From Rhodocollybia butyracea (taxonomy: Eukaryota; Basidiomycota; Agaricomycetes; Agaricales; Omphalotaceae): 64,000 bases of DNA. This document shows positions 1 through 23,254 of the stretch, piece by piece. Where the stretch lies: the NCBI GenBank assembly GCA_015501585.1, contig JADNRY010000187.1, positions 1 through 64,000 on the forward strand, written 5' to 3'. The first letter of the stretch is position 1. The number at the start of each line of letters is the position of its first letter. A program made the position numbers and the translations under genes. The notes beneath the pieces were generated by a model. That model ran no database searches, had not been told where the DNA came from, and worked only from the letters and a program-made list of their open reading frames with translations.

Positions 1-140
1 CGACAGCCTCTTCGGCTCCAGCCCACATATATTTTGCTGATGCCTCTTGAACTTCTAGAGACTAGTATACCTCTGGATGCAGTGACTATCATGAATAGAG
101 AATGCGATACTTAAGGGACAAGCGGAGTCTCTGGCAACCC

Positions 141-1047
141 ATGTTTCTTATCACCACCATTTTCATCAGGACATTCCTGGAGGTTCTGGTTTACGGTGAG
201 TTTTTCCTCGTTGTAAATGACTTAGCAACTCTCACATCCTCCCTTGATTGTCTAGGTGTTTACGTGGCGACTTTCATCAGACATGTCCAAATTCTAGTAC
301 TACGCCAGGAAAAGCTGCCCTCAAAACGTTCATCTATCTTTCAACCGCAACTTTACTTCTCTTTGTGATTGTGACTGTAGTAAGTATGCAATTAGGACAT
401 TTCAAAAAATGACCGCTGATGGAGTCCTTGTGCACGCTGCAGACCATAATAGTTGATCTTATCTTCACCACACACATCTTTAAAAAACCCACCGAGCCTA
501 TTGATTTCTCTGGGTATGCCAAAAAGCTCAAGATCAACATTGGATGTCGTTCATTTGCTGTAGTAGTTTCAGATGCTTTTTTGGTACGCCGCTGACTTGT
601 AGTTCCTTGACCACGCTGCATAGATACTCAATCCGATGCAGCTTTATCGCTCATATATCCTCTACAACTCTCGTCTTCGCGTTGTGGCCCTCCCTTTACT
701 GGTGTTTGTGCTCAAATGCGGTACTATGTCCATTTGCTATGTTTGACACTCTACTCAAATCCATTGGAAGGTATTGGAATATGGAGCTTGATTTCCCTCT
801 CTCAAAAAAATAACGCGGACCCCTGGACTCATCATTCACAAAAATTGACTCTTGCTCAAGTTATCTTCGGCTTTGTTTCAGGTACCATGAATGTGATATG
901 TACCAGTAATGGCATTTTTCCATTTCTTCGAAGAGCATGATGACTTACTAGAAGAGTCAAAAGGTCTTATTATTACCTGTTTGTGGCGCTCCCACCGTCG
1001 ACTGTTGGCGGCAGGAGTACTACTCGATCCGCAGTTGGCACTGAGCG
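141..1047 (+). pseudogene. 7TM-family protein copy 1, 5' part, split by a transposon
   Basis: This is the 5' portion of the repeated seven-transmembrane gene family of this window; the rest resumes at 23255. The ATG at 141 starts the conserved first membrane segment (MFLITTIF then FLEVLVYG), and a GTGAG...CTAG intron follows as in the other copies. The exon reading VYVATFIRHV carries a one-base deletion around 320 relative to intact copies: LPSKR is read where the others read LPPKTF. Later exons (FVSGTMNV, then CLWRSHRRLL) are recognisable. The coding sequence is broken at 1047 by the large transposon. The family resembles a very large group of roughly 320-residue Agaricomycete membrane proteins of unknown function. 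The copy is dead twice over, by frameshift and by insertion. Confidence 0.8.
1038..1047. repeat. target-site duplication, left copy
   Basis: GCACTGAGCG lies directly outside the left transposon end. The identical 10 bases recur at 23245-23254. Confidence 0.85.
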
Positions 1048-1105
1048 GGGCTAGGTGATTTTGCCGTGCAGCCGGTGCGTGGTGCGTGCGGTGCGTGCAT
1101 ATGTA
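1048..1105 (+). repeat. left terminal inverted repeat of the large transposon
   Basis: The end begins GGGCTAGGTG and continues ATTTTGCCGTGCA, then GTGCGTG-rich DNA. From ATTTTGCC onward about 30 bases match the inverted right end with one mismatch; the outermost 9-10 bases match poorly. Confidence 0.75.
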
Positions 1106-1255
1106 TATTACGAAGTCAGTTTTGATTATAAAGTCAGTACTACCGCTGTAATTTCTATCAGTTTCTGGCAATCGTTACATATGTATATTATGAAGTCATT
1201 TTTGGCTATGAACTTAGCCAATAGCGCTGTATTTGTACCAGTTTTCGGCCATTGT
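1097..1255. repeat. direct repeat, two units of about 80 bp
   Basis: Two diverged tandem units each begin with CATATGTATATTA, continue through GAAGTCA, and end with a CAGTTTCTGGC / CAGTTTTCGGC block. They lie just inside the left terminus. No coding potential is apparent. Confidence 0.6.
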
Positions 1256-1365
1256 CAAGCTCCCAACGAAGTCTGTTACTGTAATTTTACACAAATTCTA
1301 CATAATAGTACGTTTTGGATAGATTGTGAATAGAAAATTAGCAATCTCATTACACGCATCTCGTA

Positions 1366-1525
1366 CACTGGCACACACCCGCATCACTGACACGCACCAG
1401 GCACGCACTCCCGCACCACCGGCACGCACCCCGCATCAGTTTGTGGGGTGCGTGCAAGGTGCGTGCAAGGGTGCGTGCCACTAATGTCAGGTGCGTGACT
1501 CGGTGCGTGCAGTGAGCGACTTATC
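1366..1525. repeat. subterminal CACGCAC / GTGCGTG array
   Basis: The left half is made of CACGCAC-type heptamers and the right half of GTGCGTG-type heptamers, around a centre near 1440. The whole could fold into an imperfect long hairpin. The same heptamer is found in the terminal repeats and in the array at the right end, which suggests subterminal transposase-binding repeats. Confidence 0.6.
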
Positions 1526-1583
1526 AGGGACCGAATTTTTGCCATCGGGAGCCGGTCAACACGTCTCATTTAAGATTTATTTA

Positions 1584-2684
1584 ATGCGGTTACTGGGCAC
1601 AATCGACCCAGCGGGCGTGAAAAATTATTCGGTTTTCCTTCAGTCCAGCATCTCGATTCTCTTCTATGCAAATGTATTCTGGCCCGCCTCCATGGCTAGG
1701 CACTCGAGTCAAAGTCATATCTGGCCATTATAAGTCACATTGGGGAATAGTGAGGGATGTAAACCGCTGGGTGGCCAGTGTCAGTGGTTTGCATCTCACA
1801 TTAGAGATAATGGCATGGACGTCTCAAGGAGTCAACCCACAGGTCAGAGTTGACTATGATTATGTCCGGGAACCACAGTTTGTGAACACTTCTAATTTTA
1901 TATATGCTACTTACTGGTTTTTGCTCAGAAATTGGAGAACCCTCATTGAAATTGCACCTTTACAACCCTCACAAATGTTCTATCAGCTCCGACCTGATTA
2001 TATTCCACGGTCGTTCAGCAGTTCATACATTCCTCAGCCACAGCCTGTACAAACCTTTACTAGAACTCCCCCACCATCTCCTAATGCAAGTCGTGATGGT
2101 ATGGAACTGTGGTGGGAACCAGTCAATGACGAAGTATACAGATTTTTATTCCAAGTGGAAAAATTATGCTGACTCTCAAGTATTAGCCTGTGCACACTGT
2201 GCAGCAAGCAGAATGAACACATTGGATCCTAAATCCTGCATTCAATAACAAAGAGTTGAAACTCACAATTCATCACAGTCACCCGAAAGGTAGAAGAGGA
2301 GGTACTACATGGATACGCGTCAGTGAAGGTATTATTACTATTCAAAAACAGGGGAGGAACCGGGAATATCTAGATCCTGGGATGGTTTTGAGGCCAACGA
2401 TTTCACCCCCTGCAAATACAGGACATGCGCTTTTAGCTGTAATTGATGGCCCTCTGGCTGGTCAATTTGCCCGTAGGGTTGGTTCAACATGGCTCCATGG
2501 TGAGCAGAAGATTTTGATAGCATGTGTTGAAAATGCAGGAACAGTGCAAGAGTCAATTCTTCACAGTACTCATACAGTATCCCGTAATGAGGTTGTATTT
2601 GTGAAAGAGGGGAAAGGTATGAGCCAGTATGGCTTCAGATTAGCATCACAACTCGATAAGGAGTTAAAGCATTTATGTCAGTAG
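1584..2684 (+). CDS. KOW-domain protein of the transposon (probably frameshifted)
   Basis: This is the first gene inside the left end. The KOW-like core is read at about 1690-1860: GTRVKVISGHYKSHWGIVRD followed by a beta-rich stretch ending VRVDYDYV. KOW modules bind RNA or ribosomal/transcription partners in other proteins. An intron at about 1874-1928 (GTTTGTG...CTCAG) joins the core to a proline-rich linker. A last segment (2256-2684) holds IDGPLAGQFARRV and ends at a stop at 2684. The stretch upstream of the core (VKNYSVFLQSSI) is in another frame, implying a one-base lesion near 1670. The start chosen is the first ATG of that upstream frame and is uncertain. Similar KOW-bearing proteins occur as unnamed mushroom proteins; their role in a transposon is unknown. 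Confidence 0.5.
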
Positions 2685-2723
2685 TTATAAGGTCTTGATG
2701 TATACAGTTTTATTGCTTTTTGA

Positions 2724-5700
2724 TCATAACCCGGTCCAGGCTATATGCACCAAGTCACGACAACCATACACTAAATAGAGGGAAAAAATACTAACCTGAA
2801 TTTCTGACTCACTACCTTCCCGCTCATTTCCGTTCCTTTCTGGTGCAGATAGACCATATGGATACCAGTTATCTTCATGCATTCCAGCATCTAAGCCCCA
2901 CTGCTCATTACCTGACACTCCTGCTTGGGCAGACCAGTCAAACATTGCCCGATCCAGATGAATCATAGCCTCGTAGTCTACGTCAATTGGATCTATCTGG
3001 AACTTGCCATCTAGAGAGAGGCCAGTGTATTTATCAAGACGACTCCATGCCATATTGATGAGGAACTCCTCAAGTTGTGCTTTGTTGGTGCTATCTGGAC
3101 AGTTGTCCATTGCAAGGAATTCAGCCTGATATCTGTGTGCAACAAGGAGAGTTCGTGAATGAGCAAGAGGGAGATCCCAAGTTGCAGGGTTTGATGTATG
3201 TTCTAGGTTGACAAACTCATGAAAGAAGCTGCGGATTCGGGCATCATCATCCCGGTAATACCACCACAGAAGAATGGAATTTTAGGTGAACCTGGAGTCT
3301 GTGAGTTGAACCAGGCAAGCACAGGTATGAGATTTGGATTGGAAATATGGATGGAAGATTGGAATAGGTCCACAAGTGTTTGGATGTGAGGCTGAAGCAC
3401 CCGACGAATCTCGGAGTTATGTGGCAGTGAGGAAGGGTTTGTCCAAAATTCATCTTCCTTTTCATGAACTGTATGGGTCGGTCATATTTGCCCAGCTGTG
3501 AATGATTATATTTAGACAGTGTTAACTTTAGTTGGCACCTGAATACTCACCCGAATTAAGTGCCGCTCAGCTGTGTTGCCATAGAGTGCATCAACAATGC
3601 GTGAAAATGGAATGAGAGTGTGTGTTGTATTAGCAAGTGAGTCATGGATTCCTCGCCACATGCGGACTGTGGCAGTTTTTCGCTTCTCATCTTGTGCTAG
3701 AATACGCCCTGGGTAATAGAATTTATCATTGGCTTTGACTTGCACAAGTGCAGCCCTGCCAGGGCTAGATCTAGAATAAGTAAAGACTCAACATATTTAG
3801 ATTTAACTTACAAAAGGCGTGTGAATGTGGTTGCAATAGTATTACCCTTTCGCCCAGACTTCCGGAGCTGAAGTGCAGGAATATGACCAGGTACAATTAA
3901 AGGAGGGGAGCAAATATGACAAGTGAACTTTCCTGGGACGTGTCGAGTTTGGCAATGTGTAAGGCATGCTAAGTGAGTATACCTCCCGCATTCATTACAA
4001 CAGACAATTTCCTGTATAACACCTTCACGGTGGCCATCTGACTCCACTCCACAGCGGCACAGGACATGAGCCGGATCAGAAGGACCTGGAGAGCTAGATA
4101 AATTCCCATCAATCTCCATAGCCTGATCTATGTTATCAGCGTTGGGTCCCATATCTTCTAAATCCAAGTCCAAGTCCAGGTTGAATTCAACTCTGGAGTA
4201 CTCCTGTGTATGGGCGCTATGCCATGTGGCCGTTTCAGCTGCATCCATTTGCCGGAATATAGCATTAGTGTAGGGCAGGATGTTATTTGGAGTAGTAATG
4301 GAAAGATCAACATGGAGAGTGGAGAGAACTAGTGGGTTTTGAAGAATGGAGTATCTTTCCTGTGCTGCAGTTCCACCTCGGAGATGATAGATTACTGCAT
4401 ATGAAGTATATCCAGATGGGAGCCCAGTAGGCTGAAAACCAGCTAGAAAGCAGTCTACAGAAGCACTCTTCTCAAACTGACTGTAGCCACAATTCTGCAT
4501 TCCATCATATGTGAAGACTGCAAGTCGGTGGCCAGATGCCGATGGAAGTACACAACGGGTGATGAAGTGATTGGCGGTCTCGCTGTGAAACACTCGAGCT
4601 GTAATATCATAAACCACCCCATTTTTGGTTCCTTCATGGATTGTCAAGGGATAGATGTGCCGTGGGAAATCCCATTGACCTGAGAGTGAATACATGTTGG
4701 GCTCAAGGGTAAGGACAACTGGGAGAGAAACAAGATATTCCATAGTAGCAGAGGTACCCTTGCAGTACTGTTCCCCTTCACTAGGATTTTTGCGATAACA
4801 AGCAGGTTGAGAAGTGCCTTTTGCAACTGTCTTGACAGTAGTCAGAGATTTGAACCATTTAGTGATGCTGCCTTCAAATTCTGCATAGAGATGAGGGGAA
4901 GGGGCCTGGTACACCGCTGAAAGAGTGTGCAAACGTTCAACACGAACATGCTGGATCACAGACTGTGATTGGCATATCCACACCCTAAGAAGCCTTCCTG
5001 AAAAATAACTCCTACATCTGTCATTTGTTGGAAAATCATGTCCAGGAGCAACAATTGATGCAAACCAAGCCTATAGATATAGAAAGGGCTGGTCAACAAA
5101 ACCCAATGGCTTGCCTAGATCACAGAGTAAAGTGCTTACAAAACGGGTTGTGTAGTGTCAATTGGTCCTAAATTTGTCACCATTTTAGTGGTGAACAGAA
5201 ATTGGCGGAAACTATCACGCAAGTTATTGAGCTCCAGAGAGTTAGTCTTGGAAGTGGAAGGGGGAAATTCAGTGATTGGACACAGCCTACAAGCCTGCAG
5301 GCAGAGATAGAGATAGGGCTTGGAAAGGACTGGTTCTCAAACTCAAATAGAGCTTCAAACTCGGTCCAAGACCAATAGTTGAGCACACAATACAATGCCT
5401 CTAGACTTGAGTCCAGCCAGCATGAGTTCTGACTCCAGGGATAGCTCGGAATCTCAATGTGGATTTTTGTGTCAAAAACCTCGAGATTATGCTCCCGATT
5501 GATGTGCTTTGAAGGGACATATTCTCAAAGTGTTTCTGGGTAGCTTTTTTCTCTTGGTCCACAGTAGGAGCTTTGGTTGGAGATTTATTAGGAGAGTTAG
5601 ACCTGGATGATCTGATAGAATCTGAGTCTGAGGATACAACCTTGTGGCGGCAACAACGTTTTGGGGGAGGGGGGTGATCAGAGTCATCAGAATTATATTT

Positions 5701-7965
5701 AGTGTCGGGTTCTGGACGTTTTGGGGGCAGAGGGTGATCAGAGTTAAGTTTGGTGTCTAGATTCTGATTTTTGGAAGCCAACTTTCTGTGGTGGCAAAAA
5801 GCACGAAGATCATCTGGTGCCCTCCCTTCATGACGGCCTCCATTACCTTTCCGAGAAGGGTGCCCAGGTTTCCGACTAGCTTTAGTCCGTCCATGAATCT
5901 TGACTTGCTCATTCCGATATGCTAGTGCAGATTGCTTTGAGTAATGATTTGGTATGCCAACTGTTAACATGCATGATTATTTCTCAGAAAAGTTATGAAG
6001 GAAAAAACATACTCCGGGAATTGTCCCACATCCCGTGGTGATACTTCTCAACTTGAAGAAGGCCATCAAGCCCTGGTATCAGGTCATGGAACTGCCCAAC
6101 CAATTTATAGATCTTTGCATGCATAGACTCCTCTGGATTAGTAGTACTTGGTAGAAGAGCAACTCGTTCTGCCGACATAACACGCTGAGAAGAGAAGATC
6201 ATCTGTGCGATCTCTGGGCGAGTCCACCATGTGAGCCAGGGTGTGATTTTCCAGTGATTCTACATGTAGGAGACTTTTTCTAAATATTCTTCTAGCTCTT
6301 CAATGTGCATAAGTGCGCATGCACATTTGATGAAATCAGTGCGGGTTTCTGGAGAAATGATTCCAGCTGAACGGCTAACTCGTTCAACTGATTTGAGGTA
6401 GTGATATTCGCAACCACGCAGCAGAGCAGTAGCTGCGGTTTCAAGTTCCTCTCTTGTGCGCAGATCATCCTCACACTGTAGCCAAAAATCAACATATGCA
6501 AGTATAAATCCGGCTCGTTGTGGATCACTAAAATCAACAACCTAAAGAATAGTATCCAGTGAGATATTCAGTGATTCATTTTTTGAATAAAATTTTTACC
6601 CACCATTTCAAACATGGTATCAACAATCTTTTTCTTTTTGCTGGCAGCAGCTTCAGCCATGCTTTCAAAAACACCCTTGAAGTGATAACGGTAATGTTCC
6701 GCAGATGTTCCATCAGAGTATGTGAAGAGGCCAGGAACCCAGAACTGAAGTTCCTCAGAGAAGACAGAAGTGATGACAAGAACCAGTGATGATTCTGCGC
6801 AAGGAATGAATGACCGCCTTGAACCTTTGATTTGACATGACGGCGGCGATGAGCAACATATGCTGGATTGCGACCTGCTGCACCAATATCTGCTGCTCCC
6901 AATCCATAACCACTCAGAGTCTTTGGTCCAATCATGAGTGCTGCTGGACCAAGTGTAGGATGTGAATTAAAGAGTGCATCAAACTGTTCATCCTCCTGTT
7001 TACTGAAGTGGATAGCATGTGGAATGCGAGTGTGATTATGTGCACTACCGTTGACATACCGATATCTGGCGGTAGATTCATCATCGCCAAGCTGACCCCA
7101 GCTGACCAGGTAAGATTGGGAGGAACAAGTGATATGCTCGAGCGAGGAACCGCACTTGCAGCTTTCCACTAACTGATGCTGTCGAACTGCTTCAGACTTT
7201 GTGCGGGGGCGAGTGATGATGCTGCATTCTGGATTTACACAGCAAATGACACCAAGACAAGCTTTTGAACTGATCTTCCCACCGGACGGATCAGTAGAAT
7301 TTCTACTCCCTTTACGATCACCGCCGTTGTTTCTTGTAGCCCAATGTACTTGGAGATCCTTGGTGTGTTTGTACTGATCATAAGTTAGATCTAGTGCAAA
7401 AGGGCCTGATGGCCACCCATCCCATCCTGATGCAAGATTTTCCAAAGAGGTAAACTCCACTCCAAAATCAGAGAGATTGCAGAGTTCAGCTCTGGGCTGG
7501 GAGCTCAGTGGAGTATATACAGTGATTGGTGCTGGATCACTAAGATCAAATGGTACCCACTTGGAGAAATCATGAGGTTGGGAAGGTGGATAGGAAGAAG
7601 GAGGGGGAGGTTGTGTTTTCTGAATGAACTGAGAGGCATAAGGCAGACCTGGAACAGGGACAAAGTTGCCATGTAGGTCACAAGTGTAAAGACTGTGAGA
7701 TGGTAGTGGTTGGATTCTAGGACAGTTGGACTTTTCAGAGAGGTTTGTTTTGCTTCAGTGTAGCCAACAATGACACCTAACTAGGAGTAAGTAAAACAAC
7801 TAGACTGAAGGAAGGACGTGCATTTACCATTCCTGTAGATTGGGAGTATGTTCAGTAGACCCCCAGTGTCATGAGGATGTTTTTTGCCGTTGGATTTTGG
7901 ATCTTCATCATCACTTGAATCCGCAAACAAAGATACCACAGTATTGAAGCCATGTCTGAATGCCT
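2724..7965 (-). CDS. MULE-like transposase fused to USP-like peptidase, PHD and Tudor-like domains
   Basis: This is a multi-exon gene occupying over 5 kb. In order from the N-terminus it has: an acidic leader; a GCM/WRKY-like zinc module (cysteines at about 7225-7260, then HNH at about 7030); a DDE-type core (SDGTSAEHY at about 6690; VVDFSDPQRAGF at about 6510-6545; GCEYHY; STTNPEESMH at about 6120-6145, probable catalytic Glu); and a basic linker with PGHPSRK and DSD-rich stretches. Then comes a cysteine box, QNSCWLDSSLEALYC (5430-5385, Cys at 5422-5420). It is matched by a His box, NHF at 4569, with FTYDGM at 4515-4498, like USP-type peptidases. A C4HC3 PHD finger spans 4060-3910 and a Tudor-like segment (YYPGRILA) lies at about 3745-3640. 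The frame leading into the Cys box seems shifted near 5515 and no clean start was found, so this copy may be defective. Confidence 0.65.
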
Positions 7966-9033
7966 TTTTTGTACGACGCTATTGTGCATCGTTTGTTAAA
8001 AAAACACTAACTACAGTTATTCACCGAGACTTACAAACCAACCCATAGTTTAACTTATGATTATACTTAAGGTTAGAATCGAGGAGGCGGGTCGGAAAGC
8101 TGCTCGGGCATTTCACGTCGACTTTATACAAAATTCAAAACCCATCAATTTCTTTTGCAAATTCGATGCAGCGACACGGCGCACAAATGTGTCGCCAACT
8201 TTTTTACTACATTCTAATCGATGCTTCGTTGAAGAACTTATGAAACGCTATCCTATGTAAAAACTACAGGTATAATTTAAAATAAAGAGTGAGATACTTA
8301 CTCACATGTCGGCCAAAGATGTTTGGACATCCTACGCAACGGCCCTGTCAATCCCGTGCGCCATCACGCACTGGCTGTGCACGATCCGGTCAACACACAC
8401 GGAGGCCGGGTTTGATGGGTCTCATTTCGATCCAGGAACATGATGTAAGTTGTCACCAATGAGTCAGTCGTTACATTACATCATTAGTCTATCGGACTGG
8501 ACCCGGGCCAGGAATCGGCACACTATAATAAATAAATCTTTGTTTCATTTTGGGCGAATTTTTGTCACCATATGTGACCATTTTAAGAACTGTACTTCCC
8601 TGCCCAGTAGTTATTCATCCCTGCTTCATGTCTCGGGTTAATGGTTGAACAACTGGCTATCTCTTGTCCATCCCTGCTTCATCTTTTGGTCTAATGGCAA
8701 AACCTCATGGTCAGCACTTCAAAAATCCCCTGGAAGTCGGCGAAACTGGAAAAATGAGCTCTTGGCCCTCATGAAGGTGGAGTTCGTAGCCTCAAGTCCG
8801 GTTTCAGGTAGTCATTTATTGGTCAATCGGATAATGCTTGTTACTTGTTATCTGCTTGGTATCTAGTCTCTGTCGTCAGTTTTAGTAAGTTTATTATATT
8901 ACCTTCCGATAATCGTAAGTGTCTATCCTTGGCTTCCCAAAACTCGCCTGAAGACTAAGTACCTACAGTGATACCCCTCACTTATACCTGTCGTATAGTT
9001 TCTGCAATCTATTATTTCCCCCCAGCTCTCGCA
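7966..9033. other. divergent intergenic region between two transposase genes
   Basis: This stretch of about 1 kb separates the minus-strand fusion gene from the plus-strand transposase and probably holds promoters for both. Small open frames at 8057-8260 and 8450-8866 show no recognisable motif. No repeat or RNA gene was identified. Confidence 0.4.
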
Positions 9034-12000
9034 ATGCCTATGTTACCATTGGCCGAACTCTTAAATCCTGCACCAGAAGTCGAGCCACAGAGCTCTTCCT
9101 TATGCGAAACTGCTTCCTACAAGATTGAAACTAATGTGACTGTCACCCAGAAGTGTACAGTTGTTCGCCTCTATACCTACAAAGCTGGGACTACAATCAA
9201 GTATCCCAAAACCACAGAACAGGGATCTGTAGGTCATCTTTTTGAGCTGGATCCTGAGGACTGGGTCAACCCGAGTCAAGCCTTTGCATATTCACAAGGA
9301 GAACCAAAAGGATTTTTGAGGAATCGATTCTGTTGTATATTGCTTGACGATCAAGGCGAATCTGTACCTTGTTATGTACGGCACTCGACATGTATGTACT
9401 GTATCTTAAAGTCTTTGTATTGATTTTTTTTGACTCGTGAAATTGCAACAGGCCAGGGATGTAAAGCCTGCTCTTTTGCAGATAAAAACCTGGTGTCAGT
9501 GGGCCATACTACAGCGAATTGCAGTGACTTGGCTAATCAGCTTAAGCAATACTCTCAACATCGGCAGCTCGAATTGCCAACTTCAGGCTCAGTTACAAAG
9601 GACCTATTTGAAAAAACCCTCGCTTTGTGGAATGCATTCCAGAATGTTGGATGCTCGGCTCCTCTGAATGAGGACACACTCTATCTTGGGGAAGAACTTG
9701 AAGCCAGAAAAGTTCAGCTAGCTATTGACCATGATATTCGACGAGGACATACTCCTAAGCCAACCTGTCAGGGTCGAGTCATCTTGGATTACGATTCGAA
9801 GGGCACACCATATGTCCAGTAAGCTCGCCTTTTAGAACAGGTTGAATATCAGTACTTACCTAGTCCTCCCAGCTGCGAGCATTATAGGTCTGCAACTTCG
9901 CACGATCACCTGGTGAATTATGATATTAGTTCTGGTTTATATGACTTCGAGTATCTGAGAGCACTCTTCACAAATGATACTGAGGAGCTCGAGCTTATTG
10001 AGGATGGAGCTCAGGATAATGGGTATGGCCCTCTTGCTTTATGCTCGACTATCACAAATGCCTCCTCTCAACATGTTAGTTGTCATAAGTTGGCTCTTTC
10101 GTACTGTTTTCTTACTTTCAACTAACTTACATTTAGCTGCATTACATCGCAACAGCTCTGGACAGCTCGTGAAAGCCAAACTGGATCGCATCGAATGTAC
10201 TAGTCGCATTCGGGTGTTCGAACCACATGAGGAGTATCGTAAAGTCTGTCCTAAAATCCTGGTTGTCTGCACAGGCATGCACACTCACCCAATTCCCTTC
10301 CGACCAAAACACCCCAGGCCTGCGAAGAGAAATTTTAGCATTACTTCAGAGTCTTGGCCAGGATTTACCTGATATCACACCTCGTTGGTTCATCCGACAT
10401 CCCACAACCTGTGCTTATATTCGTGACCAGCTCCTAGTATGCAAAATCCAATGTTAAGTGATCTGCATATATCGCTTGCAAACCAAGATCACCTTCGAGC
10501 CTATATCACCCAGGCTCAGGAGATATCATTTCCCTATGGAACAGGCTGGGCAGGTATGTGATTATTTTGAGCCTGTTATGGAGAGTCAATGTTTCACTGC
10601 CCTGAAGGTGTTATATATGCGAAACAACTGCAGGACAGTAATGTTCCTGTATCCCAGCATTACATTTGGTTGATCAAGGAATATGAACTGGAGGATGATG
10701 AGCTCGATCTGGACTCGAGTAAGATATTCCGAATGATAGTATGCATGACTCCACTGGCAAGCCAGAGGCTTGTTCGGGCCAGTACCTGCAAAGCGATATT
10801 AGCTTCAAACGTGTCATTGGTTTCGAAGAATTTGGACTTGGGGGTCTTGACTCAAACTCAAGAACTAGTCAGCTATCTTTTTCCTCTGCATATCTCTGGC
10901 TAATTTCTACGATATAGGTATTGTTTACTGTCGGGTCTATGTCAATAGGCAAACTGCAGTAGCACATCATCGCATTTTTTCCGTGATTGATGATATTGTT
11001 TTTGCTGATACTGGGACTTGTCTTAAATGGCGACACCTGCATGGCATGGATCTTAACGACTTCTGTGGTATCCTACACTTTGCAGGCGATCAGCATGGTG
11101 GACAAGCGAAAGGTATATCTGGTTTCCATACTATATTCACCCTTACTGGATGTACTTCACAGGTCTTGGGCTTCATCTTTTAGCTCGATCAAAAGAAACT
11201 CCAGAAAAGTATGACTTACACAAACCTCGTCGTCTCCTTTCATCTCTCTTGGTGTACAAACACCTTCATCGTGTTTTTAGGCTCTGCGATGCCCACTTTA
11301 AACGTAACATCACAAAATGTAAAGTACCAGATGAAGTAAAGCAGAAGATGCAATCGCTTTCCTGTATCAGTCATCCTAACTTTGAACAAACAGTCCAGGA
11401 GATCAGATCCGAAGGTGGCAAAGCTGGAGTGGGTCAGTTGCTTCTGTAAACCTCCTCTTTTTGTTCGCTAATATTTCTTGTTAGACTGGGTTAGTGACAA
11501 GTATCGCAGCCACTTTGCTTTTGAGGCAATCTGCTGGGAGAAAAGCTTCATCCCTGCTGCAATATGGCAAGTCGGCGATTCAACAATGAATATCATTGAA
11601 GGCCTTCATGCCAATATTAACCTTGAGGGTGTATTGTGTACTCTACTGGGCGGTCTTCAAAAAGGGCAGCATTACAATAATATGAAGTATAAAATGATTG
11701 AGGCATGTGTTCATTAACTGCGGTTTAATTTTGTCAATGCTTAATGTATTTTTCAGGCCTACAAACTGACAGGTGTTACTCCATCATATAATCCCCAGCA
11801 TCTGTCTTATTCTGCAACTCAAAATTTCAAACGAAAAAGTGTGCTTTCTATTACCCAGATATCTATAACTGGCTGATCGAGCTCTAAAGGTCTTTCACGA
11901 CACAAAAGTTTATTATCGCAGGACAGTCAGATCATGAAAAGGTCACAAAAGCTGCGAAAAAACTGCAAACCGGATCGATATCATCAATTCTCGCCTTGTA

Positions 12001-12099
12001 CAGGAAGTTGCTTCAGGAGGAGAAACATCACAGGCTGCTCAAAAGGCAGCAGTTGCTAGAGCCAAGGCTCAGGATGCCTATAACAAGGTTTTAGAGTAA
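9034..12099 (+). CDS. second MULE-like transposase with zinc module
   Basis: This multi-exon gene is divergent from the fusion gene. The N-terminal domain reads GTTIKYPKT ... GHLFELDPEDW ... AFAYSQGEP. An intron (9394-9450) joins two exons to give a CQGCKAC cysteine cluster. A zinc module, CPKILVVCTGMHTHPIP, follows at 10248-10298 (C...C...HxH, as in WRKY/GCM-type MULE fingers). The DDE-like core shows a probable first Asp in DISFKRV (about 10790-10810), then FAGDQHGGQAKG (about 11070-11110), FRLCDAHFKRN (CxxH, about 11275) and STMNIIEGLH (about 11580-11610, probable Glu). A coiled-coil-like tail ends at the stop at 12099. A one-base shift near 10300 separates HPIPFRPK from LRREILALLQ, so this copy may be inactive. 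The start at 9034 was chosen for the acidic, domain-continuous frame; 8968 is also possible. Confidence 0.65.
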
Positions 12100-12187
12100 C
12101 ATGTGAGACTTACTGCGACCAAAGGGACAGGAAAATTCAATATTGTATCATCGCATATGTAGTGACTAAAAAGTAAAGCGATATTTA

Positions 12188-14119: not shown

Positions 14120-14677
14120 GACTGGAAGTGGTAAATGACCGAGGTGGTGGAGGTTGAAAGGAAAGATATGCTATCTGCACCCAGATCGTATCCGACTGGA
14201 TTCCCAGACAATCGGGTAGAAGGTCACAGCAAAAATCTGTTGATCAGTCCATCTGACTAGTCCAACAAAAATTATTTGGCATCTGATACTTAGAATGGGA
14301 ATCGTGTGGGGAAAAGAAGACATTGATACCAAAAGGCAATATTACAGTTTAAAAATAGCCCGCAGCAATCGACACCAGTACTTAAATACATAATAGTAAA
14401 CTTTACCCACAGAACATTATTTACATTGGTACTAGTAGTAGCTTATACCTGGCACCACAGGGAATCGAACGGTTGACCTCAAGGTTTCGGTGATTATGAA
14501 AGCCAGCGTTACTCCACAGCCGGGGACATATCCAGGTACGCCAAGAGGACATTTTTATTTTTGGCAAACAGACTCTACTTATGGCTTATTTAATAATATA
14601 AAAATCATGGTATTAAAAAGGTATGTACATTGAAGGCAGTAAATAAATAAAAAGTGGTATGCAGCCCTCTAGATGTA
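14120..14677. other. non-coding flank left of the Copia insertion
   Basis: AT-rich DNA lies upstream of the dioxygenase-like gene and ends at the Copia target duplication. Apart from a tRNA-like stretch, nothing is recognised. Confidence 0.4.
14447..14535 (-). other. tRNA-like sequence (pseudo-tRNA or SINE head)
   Basis: On the minus strand a B-box-like GTTCGATTCC and an upstream GCTGGCTTTCATAATC stretch resemble a tRNA-Met anticodon region. The T stem and acceptor do not pair, so a working tRNA is unlikely. A tRNA-derived relic is the best reading. Confidence 0.3.
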
Positions 14678-14682
14678 AGAAG
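14678..14682. repeat. Copia target-site duplication, left
   Basis: AGAAG directly precedes the 5' LTR and is repeated at 21450-21454 after the 3' LTR. Five base pairs is the usual size for Ty1/Copia integration. Confidence 0.9.
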
Positions 14683-15198
14683 TGTTGAAACTAGATTACC
14701 GCTTATGAGTCGTATCTAATCAGTAATGTGAGTCGACTAGACGCACTTGCTATACGATCGATGAACTGTCGATATATGCTATGTTGAAACTCACCCTCAA
14801 ACACTAGACGCAGCCTCTACGCAGGTTCGTATAGATGTAGTCAATTATGCCATTCGCTATTAGTCTTATGATACATAGCTTGTACGCTGCCTTGCAGTAC
14901 CTATGAACATTACCTATAGAATTACCATACGGACTCCATCTTCTAGGGTACATTATGCACATGTATATGCACTATGTTTAGCAGTACGACTCAAGTAGAC
15001 TCATACATTGTTATAGGGTTTATTATATTCTGTAGTATAAATACTGTAGATATTTTCCTGTAACAATAACCAAGAATCCTACTATTCGTCTGGACACTTG
15101 TTCTGCTCTCAACAAGCACTCTTATAACTCCTGTAAACTCCTTACACTCTCAGGTGAGTATGCTGTCGACCTTGTGTTGACTGACCGCTGTTTCTACA
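14683..15198 (+). repeat. 5' LTR of the Copia element
   Basis: It begins TGTTGAAACTAG and ends GTTTCTACA. A TATA-like TATAAATACTG near 15036 could be the promoter for the genomic RNA. Confidence 0.95.
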
Positions 15199-15210
15199 GG
15201 TTATGGGCCC
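15199..15210 (+). other. primer-binding site for a half initiator-tRNA
   Basis: GGTTATGGGCCC follows the LTR directly. It is complementary to the anticodon stem-loop typical of eukaryotic initiator tRNA-Met (GGGCCCAUAACC), not to a tRNA 3' end. Priming by an internal tRNA fragment is known for Drosophila copia and yeast Ty5. Confidence 0.75.
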
Positions 15211-15941
15211 CGGATCGCTTCAACACATGTTGTGCCCTCCATTGTGCTTACTGCACTTGGTTAGACAGTGTTCAATGAACGTCCAACGCTCATTCCTGGA
15301 GTGTACAAAGTTCGCGTGTTGTGCATAGCTGGTCATGGTACATGGTAACATTCATGGATCGCATTTCTCTCCATTCCTGCATTGTTCAAAAATATACATG
15401 ACTTTGCACACTGACACACACATGTATTTACATAGGCACCCAATGATCGAACGAACTGTTTAAGGGCTTTGCTGTGATGGCATTCCCTTTAGGGTTTTAT
15501 TCCCTGCCAGGTAGACTTGGGGTCACTGCTATAATAGCCATAAAAGCGTTCATGTGCATCCGCTGGCAAACTGCAAACGATCATTGGGTTCTTGGCCTTC
15601 GTAGAATAATTGTACATACACATTACCTACCTGCTGCTTGCCTTAAGTTCTTCACATGCTGAAGGGATACTGTTCGATTGTGCTGCAAAGCACATCTGAA
15701 CGTTGACTGAACACATATTCTTGGCATTCAGTTACCCTATTTGTGTTCCGATCAACTTAAGTGACTGAGACCGAATTGGAATGATCGGATCAGTGGATGG
15801 AAAATGGATGGATAATTATATGCGATCAACACTGAAAACACTTGTCACGGGTTTCCGACTTTGTTGTTGTGATCTGTGTTCATAACTTGTGGAAGCACGT
15901 CACTGACTGTTGCTCTACTTTTTCTAGAACCTTATCAAAAC
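15211..15941 (+). other. Copia 5' leader
   Basis: About 730 bp lie between the primer site and the gag ATG. A 62-codon frame at 15474-15662 has no recognisable motif. The region probably holds dimerisation and packaging signals, but none is identifiable by eye. Confidence 0.5.
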
Positions 15942-17229
15942 ATGTCTCTCTCAAACCTCTCTAGTGTTCCTCTCCTCAATGGGGCTAACTACCCCTCCTG
16001 GTCCAGTTCAATGACAGTGCTCCTTAGAGCTTCTCGTTGTTGGTCTGTTGTATGTGGACGAATCCCTCGCCCCAAACCAACATACCGGAAACCTACCGCC
16101 GATGAAATCGCCGCAAGGACTTACAAGGCCAATGAAGATATTGAGACCACCACTGCCAACGGCAGAAAGAAATTGATGACTGGGACAGCCTTGACGACCA
16201 AGCCATGGGCTTAATTGCCCTCCAACTTCCTGATGACATCAGGGCTACTGTCCTAAAAACTGAATCTAGCGAAACTTGGGAAGAAATCAAAAAGATCTAC
16301 GGCAAACCCGGCTCTGCCAGCACTTTTGGCATCTTCAAAGAGGCCATTAACTTCCAAATCGACGAAAGAAACGACCCTACTCTTGCCCTAGCATCTTTAA
16401 ACTCCACCTTCTCCCGCCTTGATGGCTCTGGTCTCATTCTTCCTGAACCGGTAAAAGCTATGATTCTCTTGGCCGCCTTACCTACTCAATGGGATAGTCT
16501 TGCAATGACAATCCTTTCTCGAGATGCTACTCTTCTTACTCCGTCAAACATCATGCCGATCATTCAGGACGAGTACCGCCGCCGCCAATCCAACGCTACC
16601 TCTCTCGTGGCCCGCATCTCCGGCGTCAAACGTCAATCTGACTCCAAGTCTTCTTGGAATGATCAGAAGAAGAAGAAGGACACTAAGAAGGGAGCGCCTT
16701 ACCCGGCAAGCAAACCTTCCAACGACTTGTCCTCTCTTCTGACAAAGACAAAAAGACACGCCGCGGAAAGAAAGGAGGAAAAGGCAAAGAAAAGGCTCAT
16801 GAATCGGCTGAAGTGGAGACTTCCAATGTCTCTAATTTCGCCACCTGCCTTGCCTCGCGCATTAATGACAGCTTCCTCCGTGAAGCCTCCCACGACTCTG
16901 TCCTTGACAGGATGAAGATCGAGGAAGTAGAGGTCAATCTCTCTGATCACCTTTGGCCTCAGACTAAACTCGAAATGGACATTGACGAGGAAATGTATGG
17001 CTCTGGAGACGAGCGCCTTATTTTCTGGCAAGCTTCCCTTAATAGTCTTAAGGAAAAATTCACTGACCAATTGCACTCATTACAACAGATGTTCAATAAT
17101 ATGGCTGGAATATCGAATGGTCCAAATGGACCTTATGTATCACACTCTCCACGCTTCTTGAACTCTGTACCTCCTAGCGAGGGTAAATTAAATAAAATGG
17201 TTTCTAATGATGTGCATGGTGCGAAATAA
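15942..17229 (+). pseudogene. Copia gag, frame-disrupted
   Basis: This would encode the capsid-like protein that packages the element RNA. The ATG at 15942 opens MSLSNLSSVPLLNGANYPSW, a typical Copia gag start (L-G-NY-W pattern). The frame ends at 16214, but the homologous reading continues one frame over from about 16170 (MGLIALQLPDD, then the KIYG and LAALP segments). It shifts again after about 16700 into the frame holding KKTRRGKKGG and the acidic tail ending at 17229. Two shifts are therefore needed to read through. No intact CCHC zinc knuckle is visible; a GAPYPASKPSN stretch could be its eroded remnant. With near-identical LTRs, the lesions are either recent or inherited by copying from an already defective template. 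Confidence 0.75.
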
Positions 17230-20200
17230 GAACCTTAGTCAGATATTTAACACATGGCTGCTTGATTCCGGTGCATCTGGATATTTTACCCCTTATCGGC
17301 AAGACTTTGTGTCTTATAAAAAATTCACACATCCGATACCTGTCCAGACCGCTGACGAACGTACATCAACCTTTATTGAAGGTGCCGGAACAGTCTACAT
17401 AAGGCATGACAATGGCGAAGGAAAAATCCTCACGACTAAGTTACACCCAGTGTTTTACCAACCGCATTGCACACACCGACTTCTATCTGTTGGTTTATTA
17501 AATCGACAGGGTTGCTACACAACTATTAACGTTGAAAAATCAGTTATTCGTAAGACGGATGATGACTCAACAATCATGACCTTATATCCCAATAACGATA
17601 GGGATAATATTCACTGGCTAAAGGCCGATGTAGTGAAATCTGAGATAGGCATGATATCATCTCCTAATGATTTTAACACCTGGCATAACCGTTTTGCACA
17701 TCCCGGTGATGTCGTATTACGCAATGCTCCTGGAAATGTCAACGGACTACCTAAGTTGTCAATACCAGATAAAGAATCTCCATGCAAAGGTTGCGCGCTT
17801 GGAAAGGCTGCCTCCAAAGCATATCCTAAGTCCGAGAAACGAGCATCCAATCCTATGGATTTAATTCACGCAGATTTGGTTGAAATTCCAACCGTCTCTT
17901 ATCATAAATTTAAATTTGTGATCACTCTGCTGGATGACTGCTCTTCTCATGCTACTTCAATCATGCTGCGACAAAAATCAGAAGCGTTTCAAGCCTTCAA
18001 GGATTTCAAATCTTGGGCTGAAAAACAAACTGGACGCAAACTTGTGCGTTTCCGCATTGATCGAGGGGGAGAACTTATCTCAAAGGAATTTACTTCCTTT
18101 CTCAAGTCTGAGGGTATTGATATTCAAATGTCCGAACCTTATGTTCATCAACAGAATGGTAGAGCGGAACGTATCAACTGTACACTCATGGAAAAATCCG
18201 AAGCCATGCGACACCATGCATGCTGCCCGGAGTCCTGGTGGCAATTTTCATATTCCACAGGAGTACATGTGTATAACCGCACACCGATCCGTCGATTGAA
18301 CTGGAAGACACCAATTGAAGGTTTTCTCAAAAAGAAACCTGATGTCTCGTACTTCAGAACCTTTGGCTGTGGCGCTTATGTCTTTATTCCTATTGACAAG
18401 CGAAAAAATAAACAATCCCCACACTCTGAAGCGATGACTTTCATTGGATATGACCAAGGAAGCAAAGGATATCTATTCATGTGTAGCGATAATTCCGTAG
18501 TGCATGCTGCACAAGCAACTTTCTATGAGAAATGGTTTCCACGGTGCAAATCTGAATCTGATTCTGGAGTAAAACCCGCTATATCTGTTGCCCCCACGCC
18601 TGTGAAACCTTCGCAACCTTCAAATGGTAATGGTGCAGACATTCCATTTGATCCGGAATTCCCGGAAGATCAACCACAACCGTTTACTGAACTGGATAAT
18701 GGACCGCACAGTCCACCAGCTGGCCCAGATCCAGATCTGCCTGGTGATGATGATGCTCCAAATCCCAATCCTCCGGTACCATCTCGATCACCCACCCCTC
18801 CACCTCAAGCAAGAGACCCTTCACCACCTGCTCCCGATCCTAATCCATTCAGCTACCGTCCCGAAGACGTTGAAGCATGGAAACGTGTGAACCCCACTAG
18901 AGAACGCCGTGCACCCTTGCGCCCTGGCATGATACCCACGCCTGGCACTTGGAGCCGACAAGCTGATTGTGAAGAACGTGCTGAGCACTTTGGACACGCT
19001 AGACGTGGACTTGTGCCTGCTCGCAATATAGTTCCTGATCAAGTTCCGCCACCGGTTCCACCACCACGTCCATTGAATCCTGATGACCGTATGGTCACAC
19101 CGCCACCTCCCGGCGCTACTCCGGATTCTGACATAGAAGAGGAAGCACTTCTGACTAAACTAGCTCAGGAAGGGGGAGTTGAATTACAAAAATACCTTCT
19201 TTCGCAAGCAATCTCCGATTCTCTAGAAGAATCATCTTTTATCACAGATCTTGACAGTGAAATGATACCGGCTAAACACGAAGCCGCTAGGAATAATCCT
19301 GATAATTGGATTTCTCCAACATCATATCGTCATTTACCATCTGCTGAAAGAAAGAAATGGGATCAAGCATGCAAAGATGAGATCGATGGTTTGAAGAAAC
19401 GAAATGTCTTTGAAGTAGTTGATCTACCAAAAGGTCGCAAACCTATCCGTTGTCGATGGGTTTTTACTAAAAAATCTGACGGTCGCTATAAAGCCCGACT
19501 CGTAGCAAAAGGTTTTTCACAAGTAGAAGGTGTGGATTATAATGAGTTGTTCTCACCGGTTGCCCGGTTTGAAACTGTACGAACTCTCCTAGCTTTAGCC
19601 GCATTAGAGGACTGGGAAATCCAGGCTCTTGACGTCAAACAGGCTTTTCTTTATGGCAAGCTAGATGAAGAGATCTACATGGAACAACCTAAAGACTTCA
19701 TTAAAGAAGGCACACCAAAAGTATGGCGGTTACATCGTGCATTATACGGACTGAAACAAGCTAGCTTATCCTGGTGGAAGGAATGTAACGCCTCCATGGG
19801 AAAATTGGGATTTAAGCGCTGCTCTTCAGATGCTGGTGTATATGTCTTTAAATCAAATGGCAAAACCGTAACTGCCATCATCTATGTTGATGACGCACTC
19901 TTTCTTGGCAAGGACAAAGATCTTGTTCTTAAAAAGAAAAACGAGTTTATGAAATTATGGGAATGTCATGATCTAGGAGAACCAACTGAGTTCCTTGGAA
20001 TGCGGATTACACGGGATCGTTCCAAACGTGTCTTAACACTTGACCAACAACCTTATCTTCGAAAGGTCATAGAACGTTTTGGACTGACTAATGCTAAAGC
20101 TACCCCAACCCCATTACCTTCATCCTGGGTTCCTCGTGCAAACACTGGTCGTGTAGATACCAAACTTAGACAACGCTTCCAAAGCGTAATTGGATCTTTA

Positions 20201-20836
20201 TTGTATCTGATGCTAGGCACCCGACCCGACATTGCTTATGCCGTTATAAAACTCTCACAGTATTCGGCAAATCCAAACCCAGATCACCTGGCCAAAGCAC
20301 TTTACATTGTGCGCTACTTAATTGGGACTTCTACTTACGTACTTGTCTTTGATGGTAGATCTGACCATGGCTTCTTAGCCTATTGTGATTCTGACTGGGC
20401 GTCAGATCCAGATGATCGAAAATCCCATACTGGGATGATTATCAAACTTGCCACAGGTCCAATCTGCTGGACTTCTCATAAACAGAAAACAGTTGCTCTT
20501 TCATCGACTGAAGCTGAATACATGGCTTTATCTGATTCATGTAGACAACTTATGTGGCTCAAGTCTCTCTTTTCTGAGATTGGAATTACTATCGCTGTAT
20601 TGCCCTTATGTGGTGATAATCAAGGATCAATCTTTCTGGGATCTAATCCTGTACAAGAAAGAAGAACCAAGCATATTGATATACGATATCATTATATCAG
20701 AGAACACATTGAATCAAAAGAAATAGAACTCTTCTATGTTCCTACTGATGATAATGTCGCAGATCTTCTCACGAAGAACCTTGCACTTGTCAAGTTCCAG
20801 AAATTCTGTAACAGTCTAGGAATTCTCTTTAATTGA
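17207..20836 (+). CDS. Copia Pol polyprotein (protease, integrase, RT, RNase H)
   Basis: This is one open frame of 1,209 codons overlapping the gag tail by 23 bases. The protease motif LLDSGASG has Asp at residue 20. GAG-pre-integrase has WHNRFAHPG at residue 159 and CKGC at 193. The integrase triad is Asp223, Asp285 and Glu321, an exact D-35-E spacing. A proline-rich linker spans about 465-650. Reverse transcriptase begins near WVFTKKSDGRYKARLVAKGF and has YVDD at 893-896. RNase H starts at CDSDWASD (Asp1061), with STEAEYMAL and a C-terminal TKHIDIRYH segment. All catalytic residues I can check are present, so pol looks functional. The first Met is the first after a stop; translation more likely comes as a Gag-Pol fusion. 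Confidence 0.95.
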   Translation: MMCMVRNKNLSQIFNTWLLDSGASGYFTPYRQDFVSYKKFTHPIPVQTADERTSTFIEGAGTVYIRHDNGEGKILTTKLHPVFYQPHCTHRLLSVGLLNRQGCYTTINVEKSVIRKTDDDSTIMTLYPNNDRDNIHWLKADVVKSEIGMISSPNDFNTWHNRFAHPGDVVLRNAPGNVNGLPKLSIPDKESPCKGCALGKAASKAYPKSEKRASNPMDLIHADLVEIPTVSYHKFKFVITLLDDCSSHATSIMLRQKSEAFQAFKDFKSWAEKQTGRKLVRFRIDRGGELISKEFTSFLKSEGIDIQMSEPYVHQQNGRAERINCTLMEKSEAMRHHACCPESWWQFSYSTGVHVYNRTPIRRLNWKTPIEGFLKKKPDVSYFRTFGCGAYVFIPIDKRKNKQSPHSEAMTFIGYDQGSKGYLFMCSDNSVVHAAQATFYEKWFPRCKSESDSGVKPAISVAPTPVKPSQPSNGNGADIPFDPEFPEDQPQPFTELDNGPHSPPAGPDPDLPGDDDAPNPNPPVPSRSPTPPPQARDPSPPAPDPNPFSYRPEDVEAWKRVNPTRERRAPLRPGMIPTPGTWSRQADCEERAEHFGHARRGLVPARNIVPDQVPPPVPPPRPLNPDDRMVTPPPPGATPDSDIEEEALLTKLAQEGGVELQKYLLSQAISDSLEESSFITDLDSEMIPAKHEAARNNPDNWISPTSYRHLPSAERKKWDQACKDEIDGLKKRNVFEVVDLPKGRKPIRCRWVFTKKSDGRYKARLVAKGFSQVEGVDYNELFSPVARFETVRTLLALAALEDWEIQALDVKQAFLYGKLDEEIYMEQPKDFIKEGTPKVWRLHRALYGLKQASLSWWKECNASMGKLGFKRCSSDAGVYVFKSNGKTVTAIIYVDDALFLGKDKDLVLKKKNEFMKLWECHDLGEPTEFLGMRITRDRSKRVLTLDQQPYLRKVIERFGLTNAKATPTPLPSSWVPRANTGRVDTKLRQRFQSVIGSLLYLMLGTRPDIAYAVIKLSQYSANPNPDHLAKALYIVRYLIGTSTYVLVFDGRSDHGFLAYCDSDWASDPDDRKSHTGMIIKLATGPICWTSHKQKTVALSSTEAEYMALSDSCRQLMWLKSLFSEIGITIAVLPLCGDNQGSIFLGSNPVQERRTKHIDIRYHYIREHIESKEIELFYVPTDDNVADLLTKNLALVKFQKFCNSLGILFN

Positions 20837-20923
20837 TTCATCATAGACTGTGCAATATGTCTATAGACTATAATGCCATTTAAAGTCGATAAAAAATTAT
20901 ACTTCTTAGCTACAATTCTTAGC

Positions 20924-20932
20924 GAGGGGGAG
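20924..20932 (+). other. polypurine tract
   Basis: GAGGGGGAG lies directly before the 3' LTR, the expected plus-strand primer position. Confidence 0.8.
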
Positions 20933-21449
20933 TGTTGAAACTAGATTACCGCTTATGAGTTGTATCTAATCAGTAATGTGAGTCGACTAGACGCACTTGC
21001 TATACGATCGATGAACTGTCGATATATGCTATGTTGAAACTCACCCTCAAACACTAGACGCAGCCTCTACGCAGGTTCGTATAGATGTAGTCAATTATGC
21101 CATTCGCTATTAGTCTTATGATACATAGCTTGTACGCTGCCTTGCAGTACCTATGAACATTACCTATAGAATTACCATACGGACTCCATCTTCTAGGGTA
21201 CATTATGCACATGTATATGCACTATGTTTAGCAGTACGACTCAAGTAGACTCATACATTGTTATAGGGTTTATTATATTCTGTAGTATAAATACTGTAGA
21301 TATTTTCCTGTAACAATAACCAAGAATCCTACTATTCGTCTGGACACTTGTTCTGCTCTCAACAAGCACTCTTATAACTCCTGTAAACCTCCTTACACTC
21401 TCAGGTGAGTATGCTGTCGACCTTGTGTTGACTGACCGCTGTTTCTACA
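20933..21449 (+). repeat. 3' LTR of the Copia element
   Basis: It matches the 5' LTR except for C to T in GAGTCGTATC / GAGTTGTATC and an extra C near 21389. Confidence 0.95.
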
Positions 21450-21454
21450 AGAAG
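21450..21454. repeat. Copia target-site duplication, right
   Basis: AGAAG is identical to the bases directly before the 5' LTR. Confidence 0.9.
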
Positions 21455-21553
21455 GACATTTTAGTAGATAGATTATGGGAAAGAGACGATAAATACTAAA
21501 AGATCTGAGAATAGTTAGAAATAAAATAAGCAGGAACAGCTGCTAATTGCTGG

Positions 21554-22729
21554 CTAATTGTCATCAAGGGTAAGGTCAATAATACTAGTAGGAGTAGTAG
21601 TCTGTCTAGCTGCTGTACGATGGCGGCGAATAGAGCCTGGGAGGCATCTGTGACCCGAAAAAGTTCTCTTTGTGGTCACCCGACCACAGGTGCATCTCCG
21701 AAACATAGCAGCAAATGCTTCCTCCTCAATTCCATTTCCATCTCCAGAGTCGAGCTCAAGTAGCAAGGATAGCAATGACCGAGGCTCAGTGGAAGCAGGT
21801 CCTGTGCGAGAAATTCCATCCATCTGGATGGGGAGAGCTGCTGGTCGGGTGGGTGAACTGTTTGTACTGTTTGTGCGAGACGAAGAGGGAAAGGGAACAG
21901 GGGCCTGCGATGGAGACATCTGGCCAGATGGCTGTGAGCCTAAGTCGGTCTGTTAGTATACCAGCTGCATGCACAGGAAAAAGTCGGACGAACTCATTAA
22001 GGCCATCTCAACTTCCTCGTCAGAGTCGATAAGCATGTCGAAGAGCGAGTCCATTGGACGAATAGCTGCAGCCTGAGAAGCCAAAGGTACATTGGGGACC
22101 AAAGATGATGGTATTGGGTCTGGTCGCTCAGGATACCTACCAATCAGCAAGCCTCGTTGGGCATACATCTTCTCCAGCAGCACTATAAAATTCTTAAGCA
22201 ATGCACAGTCTCCGAAATACTACTGAACTTACCCCAGTATCCACATCGTGTTTCTTGAGCACACGAAGCTACCCATTGGCCAGAAAGTCTCCCCGACATG
22301 GGCTGCCAGACTTTCGTCTCTCGTGGGATTCCATCGGTCCTCGAACATAGGCACATGGGATTGCGGAAATAATGGGTTAGCTTGTAAGTGTCCCAGTTAT
22401 CGGGGGTAACTCGGGCAGTGATCATCGGCCTTTAAAAAGTTAAAATTATTAGCTAGGTATATAGTAGAGTATGGTGGATAAGCCTACCATGGTTTTGCAA
22501 CAAGGGAGTTGGCATCGACAGACCATTCCACGATTTCGGGCCCCATTCGTGCATTCGTCCTAACTCGGCGATTGAAAGGTCGATGCCCGAGAGGGTCATT
22601 GACACTGGTATCTCGAGGGTCAAAAATCGGTGTATAGAGAAGAGCAGCCCCAGGGGCAGGTCGTGGCCTAGTGGTAGATGTGGGCCCAGCTCGGGCTCTG
22701 GTGGTTCGAAGACGAGGCTGGACAGGCAT
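21554..22729 (-). CDS. zinc-binding protein with C-terminal SUMO-interaction-like motif
   Basis: A minus-strand gene near the right end of the large transposon. It opens at 22729 with a basic R/P/T-rich segment, then FDPRDTSVNDPLGHRPFN. An intron (about 22489-22432) leads to PMITARVTPDNWDTYKLTHY and a cysteine-bearing stretch (CLCS ... CAQETRCGYW). A second intron (about 22237-22188) leads to LLEKMYAQRGLLIGRYPERP and an acidic helix (LIDSDEEVEMAL). A third intron with a perfect TACTAAC branch point leads to the last exon. That exon has CTCGRVTTKRTFSGHRCLP, a C-x-C...H-x-C zinc-like cluster, and ends IIDLTLDDN. IIDLTLDD fits the hydrophobic-core-plus-acidic pattern of SUMO-interaction motifs. 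No catalytic domain is seen. The frame looks coherent throughout. Confidence 0.6.
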
Positions 22730-23119
22730 TGCAAAGTAGATGGAGTGTTGGGGCTTACTTAGTAAATTTGAAGGAGCTTTTTATACCTAAAAAGCAGCAC
22801 AACAGGCAAGTCGACTTTGTCGTTCATTTTTTTGCTGCTCATAGTGATCGAACGAGGCCAAGCTTTCGGCTGCCAGTGCCCGTGGAGCGACAGTGACAGT
22901 CGTAGGCTCGTAGCGAGCAACTTTGTGCAGGGTGCAGCGCTGCTGGCCGAGAGATCGCTTGCTAATTGTGACAGAAAAAATAAACTTTACTGGTTATTTT
23001 ATTTTACAATTTTTGGACCGTTGTCCGGATGTTGTCCGGCATCCGGAGTCTGGACCACTGAGCAATCCTCAGGTGATGTGACGGTTACAGACCTCGTGAT
23101 ATGTTCCTAGATCGGAATG
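22730..23119. other. non-coding DNA near the right end of the transposon
   Basis: It probably contains the promoter of the minus-strand zinc-protein gene. It includes two short GGACCG/GTTGTCCGG/CATCCGG stretches near 23015-23050. No gene seen. Confidence 0.35.
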
Positions 23120-23221
23120 AGACCCATCAAACGGTCCCTCACACGCACGCACCACGCACTGCACGCACCGCGCAACTTGCACGCATCACGCACTCCGCAC
23201 GCACCACGCACCACGCACCGG
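23120..23221. repeat. right subterminal CACGCAC array
   Basis: At least ten degenerate copies of CACGCAC/CACGCACC run up to the right terminus, inverted relative to the GTGCGTG units at the left end. Confidence 0.7.
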
Positions 23222-23244
23222 GTGCACGGCAAAATGTATGTGCC
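23187..23244 (-). repeat. right terminal inverted repeat of the large transposon
   Basis: Read on the minus strand it begins GGCACATACATTTTGCCGTG, matching the left end from ATTTTGCC onward. Confidence 0.75.
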
Positions 23245-23254
23245 GCACTGAGCG
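23245..23254. repeat. target-site duplication, right copy
   Basis: GCACTGAGCG is identical to 1038-1047. The following CGTATTCTCAAGTTGGTGC continues the 7TM gene. Confidence 0.85.

Follow-up and report, generated by a model that had tools for sequence, protein, structure and literature searches.

Mutator-like elements (MULEs) produce target duplications of 8–11 bp, and Rehavkus, with a 9-bp duplication, a PHD finger in its transposase and a minisatellite by the 3' terminal repeat, forms their outgroup or an early branch of them, according to the passages of PMC6446971 on which we drew; in these passages, Arthropoda and Annelida are its only published hosts. In maize and rice, more than one-third of the candidate coding MULEs are reported to carry nested insertions (PMC3903597). 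We analyzed a 64,000-nucleotide stretch of the mushroom Rhodocollybia butyracea (contig JADNRY010000187.1, positions 1 to 64,000, on our contig C480; hereafter the window), in which a 22-kb block interrupts a membrane-protein-like gene. A preliminary description of this DNA had read the block as one MULE-like transposon. We conclude that it is almost certainly a three-level nested insertion consisting of an outer Mutator-type element, an inner Mutator-type element and a Copia retrotransposon. One gene of a multicopy membrane-protein-like array thereby received a Mutator-type transposon of approximately 7.5 kb; the right terminal region of this transposon holds another Mutator-type element of approximately 8 kb, different in DNA, and the latter holds the Copia retrotransposon.

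Borders and copies of the outer element

According to the preliminary description, the block is flanked by the 10-bp repeat GCACTGAGCG, and each of its ends carries ATTTTGCCGTGCA, in inverted orientation to the other, with GTGCGTG-type units after it. Both the repeat (1038-1047 and 23245-23254) and the inverted ends were found. However, comparison with other copies sets the right terminus at ...GTGCCG; therefore, the duplication is the 9-bp CACTGAGCG. The 10-bp duplication was rejected, as its extra leading G is the last base of the element and matches by coincidence.

In the genome assembly, which comprises 1,381 contigs and 95.6 Mb, the two end motifs occurred 82 and 77 times with at most two mismatches, and the reversed controls did not occur. 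End pairs were chosen by eye at distances of up to approximately 10 kb, and the script ignored pairs more than 9 kb apart outside the window; larger copies were not systematically covered. Both ends were present at 56 of the 63 loci scanned, and terminal inverted repeats were confirmed for the family. Within this pairing distance, copies ranged from 266 bp to 7.5 kb, the 22 kb of the window excepted. Duplications were perfect at 9 bp in 37 of the 56 copies, whereas flanks re-paired at random matched 9/9 in 9 of 20,000 draws. Five further copies had 8/8 and five had 8/9 matches; nine had two or more mismatches, five of which belong to one subtype of 266–299 bp. The search suggested in the preliminary description thus brought up further insertions bearing these ends, and empty sites as well.

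The 56 copies represent 50 sites by exact flanks, and L023 and L025 look like one further shared site. The same insertion sites were observed on different contigs for L018/L020, L042/L053, L078/L080 and L058/L074/L079. Because several sites occur twice with identical flanks on different contigs, the assembly probably holds two haplotypes in part.

An inner element and a Copia retrotransposon within the outer element

We compared the window with the other five long outer copies (L017, L018, L019, L020 and L021), of which L018 and L020 share one insertion site. Blocks up to position 8401 aligned at 93.7–99.3%, with deletions that varied between copies. Past 8401, the match of the long copies to the window resumed at approximately 23142 and was confined to the right terminal repeat. 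The intervening DNA begins and ends with inverted repeats (GAGG..TTTGATGGGTCTCATT) and is flanked by a 9-bp duplication of its own; L017 carries ACACGCACG once and represents the empty site. In addition, a free-standing inner copy of 7,654 bp was found on contig C501, with terminal inverted repeats and the perfect duplication CCTGGTTAA on both sides. This copy is 98.6–99.3% identical to the inner block of the window, is approximately 0.3 kb shorter and contains no Copia; it is the empty site for the Copia element. The inner termini occurred 36 times in the genome and the reversed control 0 times. Among 15 inner loci, the duplication was 9/9 at four, 8/9 in the window, 10 bp at five, 10 bp with one mismatch at one, 8 bp at one and 7 bp at one; one locus had none and one lacked an end pair. 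Lengths other than 9 were read by eye from the flanks, and L088 and L092 look like one site.

These data bear on two other explanations. The preliminary description had suggested an unusually large element of an undescribed compound class. A single 22-kb compound transposon moving as a unit would agree with the intact outer ends and their 9-bp duplication, and a transposase supplied elsewhere could in principle move the whole block. However, the other five long outer copies lack the inner block, and the inner element and the Copia element each have their own duplication and empty site. Moreover, near-identical inner DNA in this assembly is confined to the window contig and, alone, to C501, with a 64% relative on C795, and the whole unit was not found at a second site. 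We consider such a unit very improbable. The claim of complete borders with a duplication of MULE-type length is retained, whereas that of one element is not, and the extra length consists of a second DNA transposon and a Copia element. Alternatively, the outer element may be a Pack-MULE that captured an 8-kb host segment and received no second transposon. Acquisition of host fragments is known for MULEs (PMC6446971, in the passages used), and a 98.6–99.3% copy of the block lies on C501. Nevertheless, terminal inverted repeats bound that copy, its 9-bp duplication is perfect, the termini occur 36 times in the genome, and the block encodes a transposase-like protein; we give capture hardly any credence.

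The nested reading also changes the gene content. Because the inner element and the Copia element each bring a duplication of their own, and the only other near-identical inner DNA found stands by itself on C501, the inner transposase and Copia genes are foreign to the outer element, which the preliminary description had credited with at least five genes. No Pfam MULE domain was detected in 11 members of the inner family at E ≤ 0.5, Foldseek gave no match to an inner-family model at E ≤ 0.001, and a PDB sequence search with this family returned nothing significant. Three open reading frames (ORFs) tested in the region of the second inner gene had no Pfam match.

Nesting recurs in the outer family, because outer-ended elements on C686 and C457 also hold insertions. 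The same Copia (98% identity; long terminal repeats (LTRs) 99.8%) is nested in L072 (C686:41400-49150), and the element on C457 contains an insertion bounded by 427-bp repeats. When five proteins were compared by tblastn with the long outer-ended elements L026, L063, L071, L072 and L075, none matched; two of these elements carry LTR-bounded insertions. We also observed that L072 has an 8-bp abutting duplication and that L075 (C784:18200-22600) is an outer-ended 4.1-kb element with a 1,461-bp inverted repeat (97% identity) in a fold-back arrangement. The features of the locus are summarized in Table 1.

Table 1. Coordinates of the interrupted gene and of the nested elements in the window
Feature	Position	Strand	Remarks
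Interrupted membrane-protein-like gene, left part	103..1038	+	
Outer 9-bp target-site duplication CACTGAGCG, left copy	1039..1047		
Outer Mutator-type element	1048-23245		22,198 bp border to border; net length 7,450 bp
Outer element, left part	1048..8401	+	Block present in five other long copies at four sites, without inner element
Outer left terminus	1048..1099	+	About 52 bp; recurs at 96-98% in many other copies
Subterminal GTGCGTG-type repeats	1360..1530		Both orientations
Stop-to-stop ORF with weak KOW motif	1621..2172	+	KOW5_SPT5 E 5.7e-5, below Pfam's cut-off
Predicted outer transposase gene region	2726..8046	-	Modelled protein of 1,496 amino acids, with ten introns proposed in the gene; comprises DDE with C(2)H, a USP-like part, a PHD finger and a weak GCM-like finger
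Deletion point	6795..6797	-	About 173 bp of L017, L018, L020 and L021 missing; first catalytic Asp motif SDGAH absent from window copy
Inner 9-bp duplication ACACACACG, left copy	8393..8401		8/9 match to right copy ACACGCACG
Inner Mutator-type element with nested Copia	8402..23140	+	14,739 bp, or 7,967 bp after subtraction of Copia and the 5 bp that it duplicated
Inner transposase gene	9034..11717	+	Compare annotated protein P0014; fold examined for a relative
Predicted second gene of inner element	12190..13611	-	401-amino-acid model
Nested Copia LTR retrotransposon	14683..21449	+	6,767 bp; LTRs about 519 bp, 99.6% identical; duplication AGAAG on both sides; gag, integrase, RVT_2
Outer right terminal repeat	23141..23245	+	Tandem repeats of CACGCAC type, with GTGCCG as the terminus; opens with the right copy of the inner duplication (9 bp)
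Outer 9-bp duplication CACTGAGCG, right copy	23246..23254		
Interrupted gene, right part	23255..23994	+	

The interrupted gene

As the preliminary description had proposed, the insertion lies in a gene of a paralogous family. The flanks, joined with one duplication kept, aligned through the junction with all six in-window paralogs at 72.9–77.0%, and these paralogs are uninterrupted. Gaps next to the junction were of 3 or 6 bases, and one pair had a 2-base gap approximately 35 bases further on. The proposed restored exon is plausible from this alignment, in which gaps are mostly 3 or 6 bases, but it is unproved by a gene model. Similarly, the seven-transmembrane label is plausible but unconfirmed; Pfam gave no name for the family, and three rough gene models had 3, 7 and 5 segments of hydrophobic character. 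Of the 40 matches of the left flank that were scored, one was the flank itself, five were paralogs on this contig and 34 lay on others. When an empty-site allele of this flank was sought among 40 scored candidates, only paralogs of 74–81% were found.

The membrane-protein-like genes form a large tandem-array family, located at 25000-47500 in the window and on contigs C531, C1228, C450, C683 and C716, among others; its members are 74–81% alike in the searched stretch. Between or beside these genes are three similar ORF regions of the SLIRHAE / HTPPEGGES type (37072-38123, 49013-49795 and 50354-51178), which look phosphoglycerate-mutase-like.

Recent mobility of the outer family

We selected 12 of the 56 end-paired insertions, joined their flanks with one duplication kept and searched the genome, scoring 40 of 90 candidates. 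At least one junction-spanning match was found among the scored candidates for 10 of the 12 insertions. Three matched at 100% over 138–141 bases, the 7.5-kb copy L017 matched at 96%, and six matched at 84–94%; the last six may be paralogs. For L021 and L028, only their own flanks were found among the scored candidates. Each 100% case pairs a sequence that carries the element with one that lacks it but is otherwise the same, which is the pattern expected of a young insertion. The outer family is recently mobile.

The outer transposase

Proteins of the outer family occur in several mushroom genera and are approximately 1,400–1,800 amino acids long. The D-D-C(2)H-E residues were invariant in all 12 aligned relatives; when P0002, a model without the E stretch, was added, E became nearly invariant. 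One part of these proteins appears to be a protease region of USP fold, and its Cys and His are conserved. In the fold comparison of an outer-family model, the USP part accounted for all 50 matches listed. Of 12 members, 7 matched a PHD finger at E ≤ 0.5, the best of them at 1.5e-4; a profile match to BYE1 reached 3.2e-5, and only PHD-type matches worth noting were returned by a PDB sequence search with this family. Distant relatives were also observed on C468, C559, C453, C224 and C497, with 35–52% identity to P0001.

Stretches of the window copy contain stop codons, and some of the proposed introns may therefore be decay. The DNA itself encodes the USP Cys box, in the stop-to-stop ORF 5177-5524, but the model reads 5433-5319 as an intron and thereby leaves the box out. 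Because the region of the first Asp is missing, the window copy is probably dead. The KOW-motif ORF is covered in L017, L019 and L021 and partly in L018 and L020, and it is a possible accessory gene of the outer element.

As judged from these sequences, the outer family would move by cut and paste. The DDE transposase would recognize the shared ends of approximately 50 bp, cut them and join them with a 9-bp stagger, and the same transposase may mobilize the short non-autonomous copies in trans. The USP-fold part may strip the transposase itself, or chromatin, of ubiquitin (or SUMO), and the PHD finger may read histone tails at the target. We tentatively propose, as one possibility, that the outer family is a fungal Rehavkus-like branch, very recently mobile, whose single large transposase unites a DNA-binding finger and a DDE recombinase with a USP-type deubiquitinase that is active and a PHD finger that reads histones, and that it protects the transposase from the proteasome or edits ubiquitin on target chromatin. 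A literature search of titles and the starts of abstracts returned no paper describing a USP-fused transposase; its coverage lacked most subscription journals, and the absence is hence a weak one.

The claim of a giant transposon thus dissolves into nesting, which warns against taking border-to-border length as element length. The remaining interest lies in a recently mobile family of mushroom DNA transposons with a transposase that seems to be joined to a PHD finger and a region of deubiquitinase fold. Should the protease prove active, a connection of transposition with chromatin and the ubiquitin system could be tested in this family.

Comparison with known transposon groups

The nested retrotransposon resembles Ty1/Copia elements in gag, integrase, RVT_2, LTRs and 5-bp duplication, with no notable difference. 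For the inner transposase, the ISCth4 transposase, of solved structure and of the IS256 family, showed only 6% identity, and Foldseek alone gave no match at E ≤ 0.001.

The outer family shares with MULEs duplications in the 8–11-bp range, terminal inverted repeats, a DDE transposase and short non-autonomous copies. A C(2)H motif between the second D and the E characterizes MULE transposases; it is present in the outer-family relatives, and the window copy lacks the first D. The family differs from MULEs in having a fused USP-like part and no Pfam MULE match (12 members, E ≤ 0.5). Plant Kaonashi MULEs carry ULP1-type proteases, a different protease family from USP. We also considered a non-Mutator superfamily, such as KDZ/Zisupton or hAT-like elements, whose duplications are 8–9 bp long; DDE superfamilies other than MULE with C(2)H exist. 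The missing Pfam MULE match would suit this assignment, as would the DDE regions of the outer and inner families, which on their own match only weakly. However, the whole profiles of the two families align collinearly (probability 83%), the Pfam models listed at E ≤ 0.5 included none for KDZ, the termini consist of tandem repeats, and a weak GCM-like finger was found in 4 of 12 members. In addition, the 9-bp duplications of 37 of the 56 copies lie within the MULE range given in the cited passages (PMC6446971). A non-Mutator origin is unlikely, and we retain the Mutator-type assignment.

Rehavkus differs from the outer family in host, the latter living in a mushroom, outside the published range. 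Moreover, the passages of PMC6446971 used here mention neither a USP-fold part nor a weak GCM-like finger, both of which belong to the protein of approximately 1,400–1,800 amino acids. Because the host range differs, we would call the outer family Rehavkus-like and no more. The name reflects a likeness in three characters reported for Rehavkus in those passages: the 9-bp duplication, the PHD finger and minisatellite-like repeats near the 3' terminal repeat, for the last of which the counterpart would be the tandem repeats at 23142-23219.
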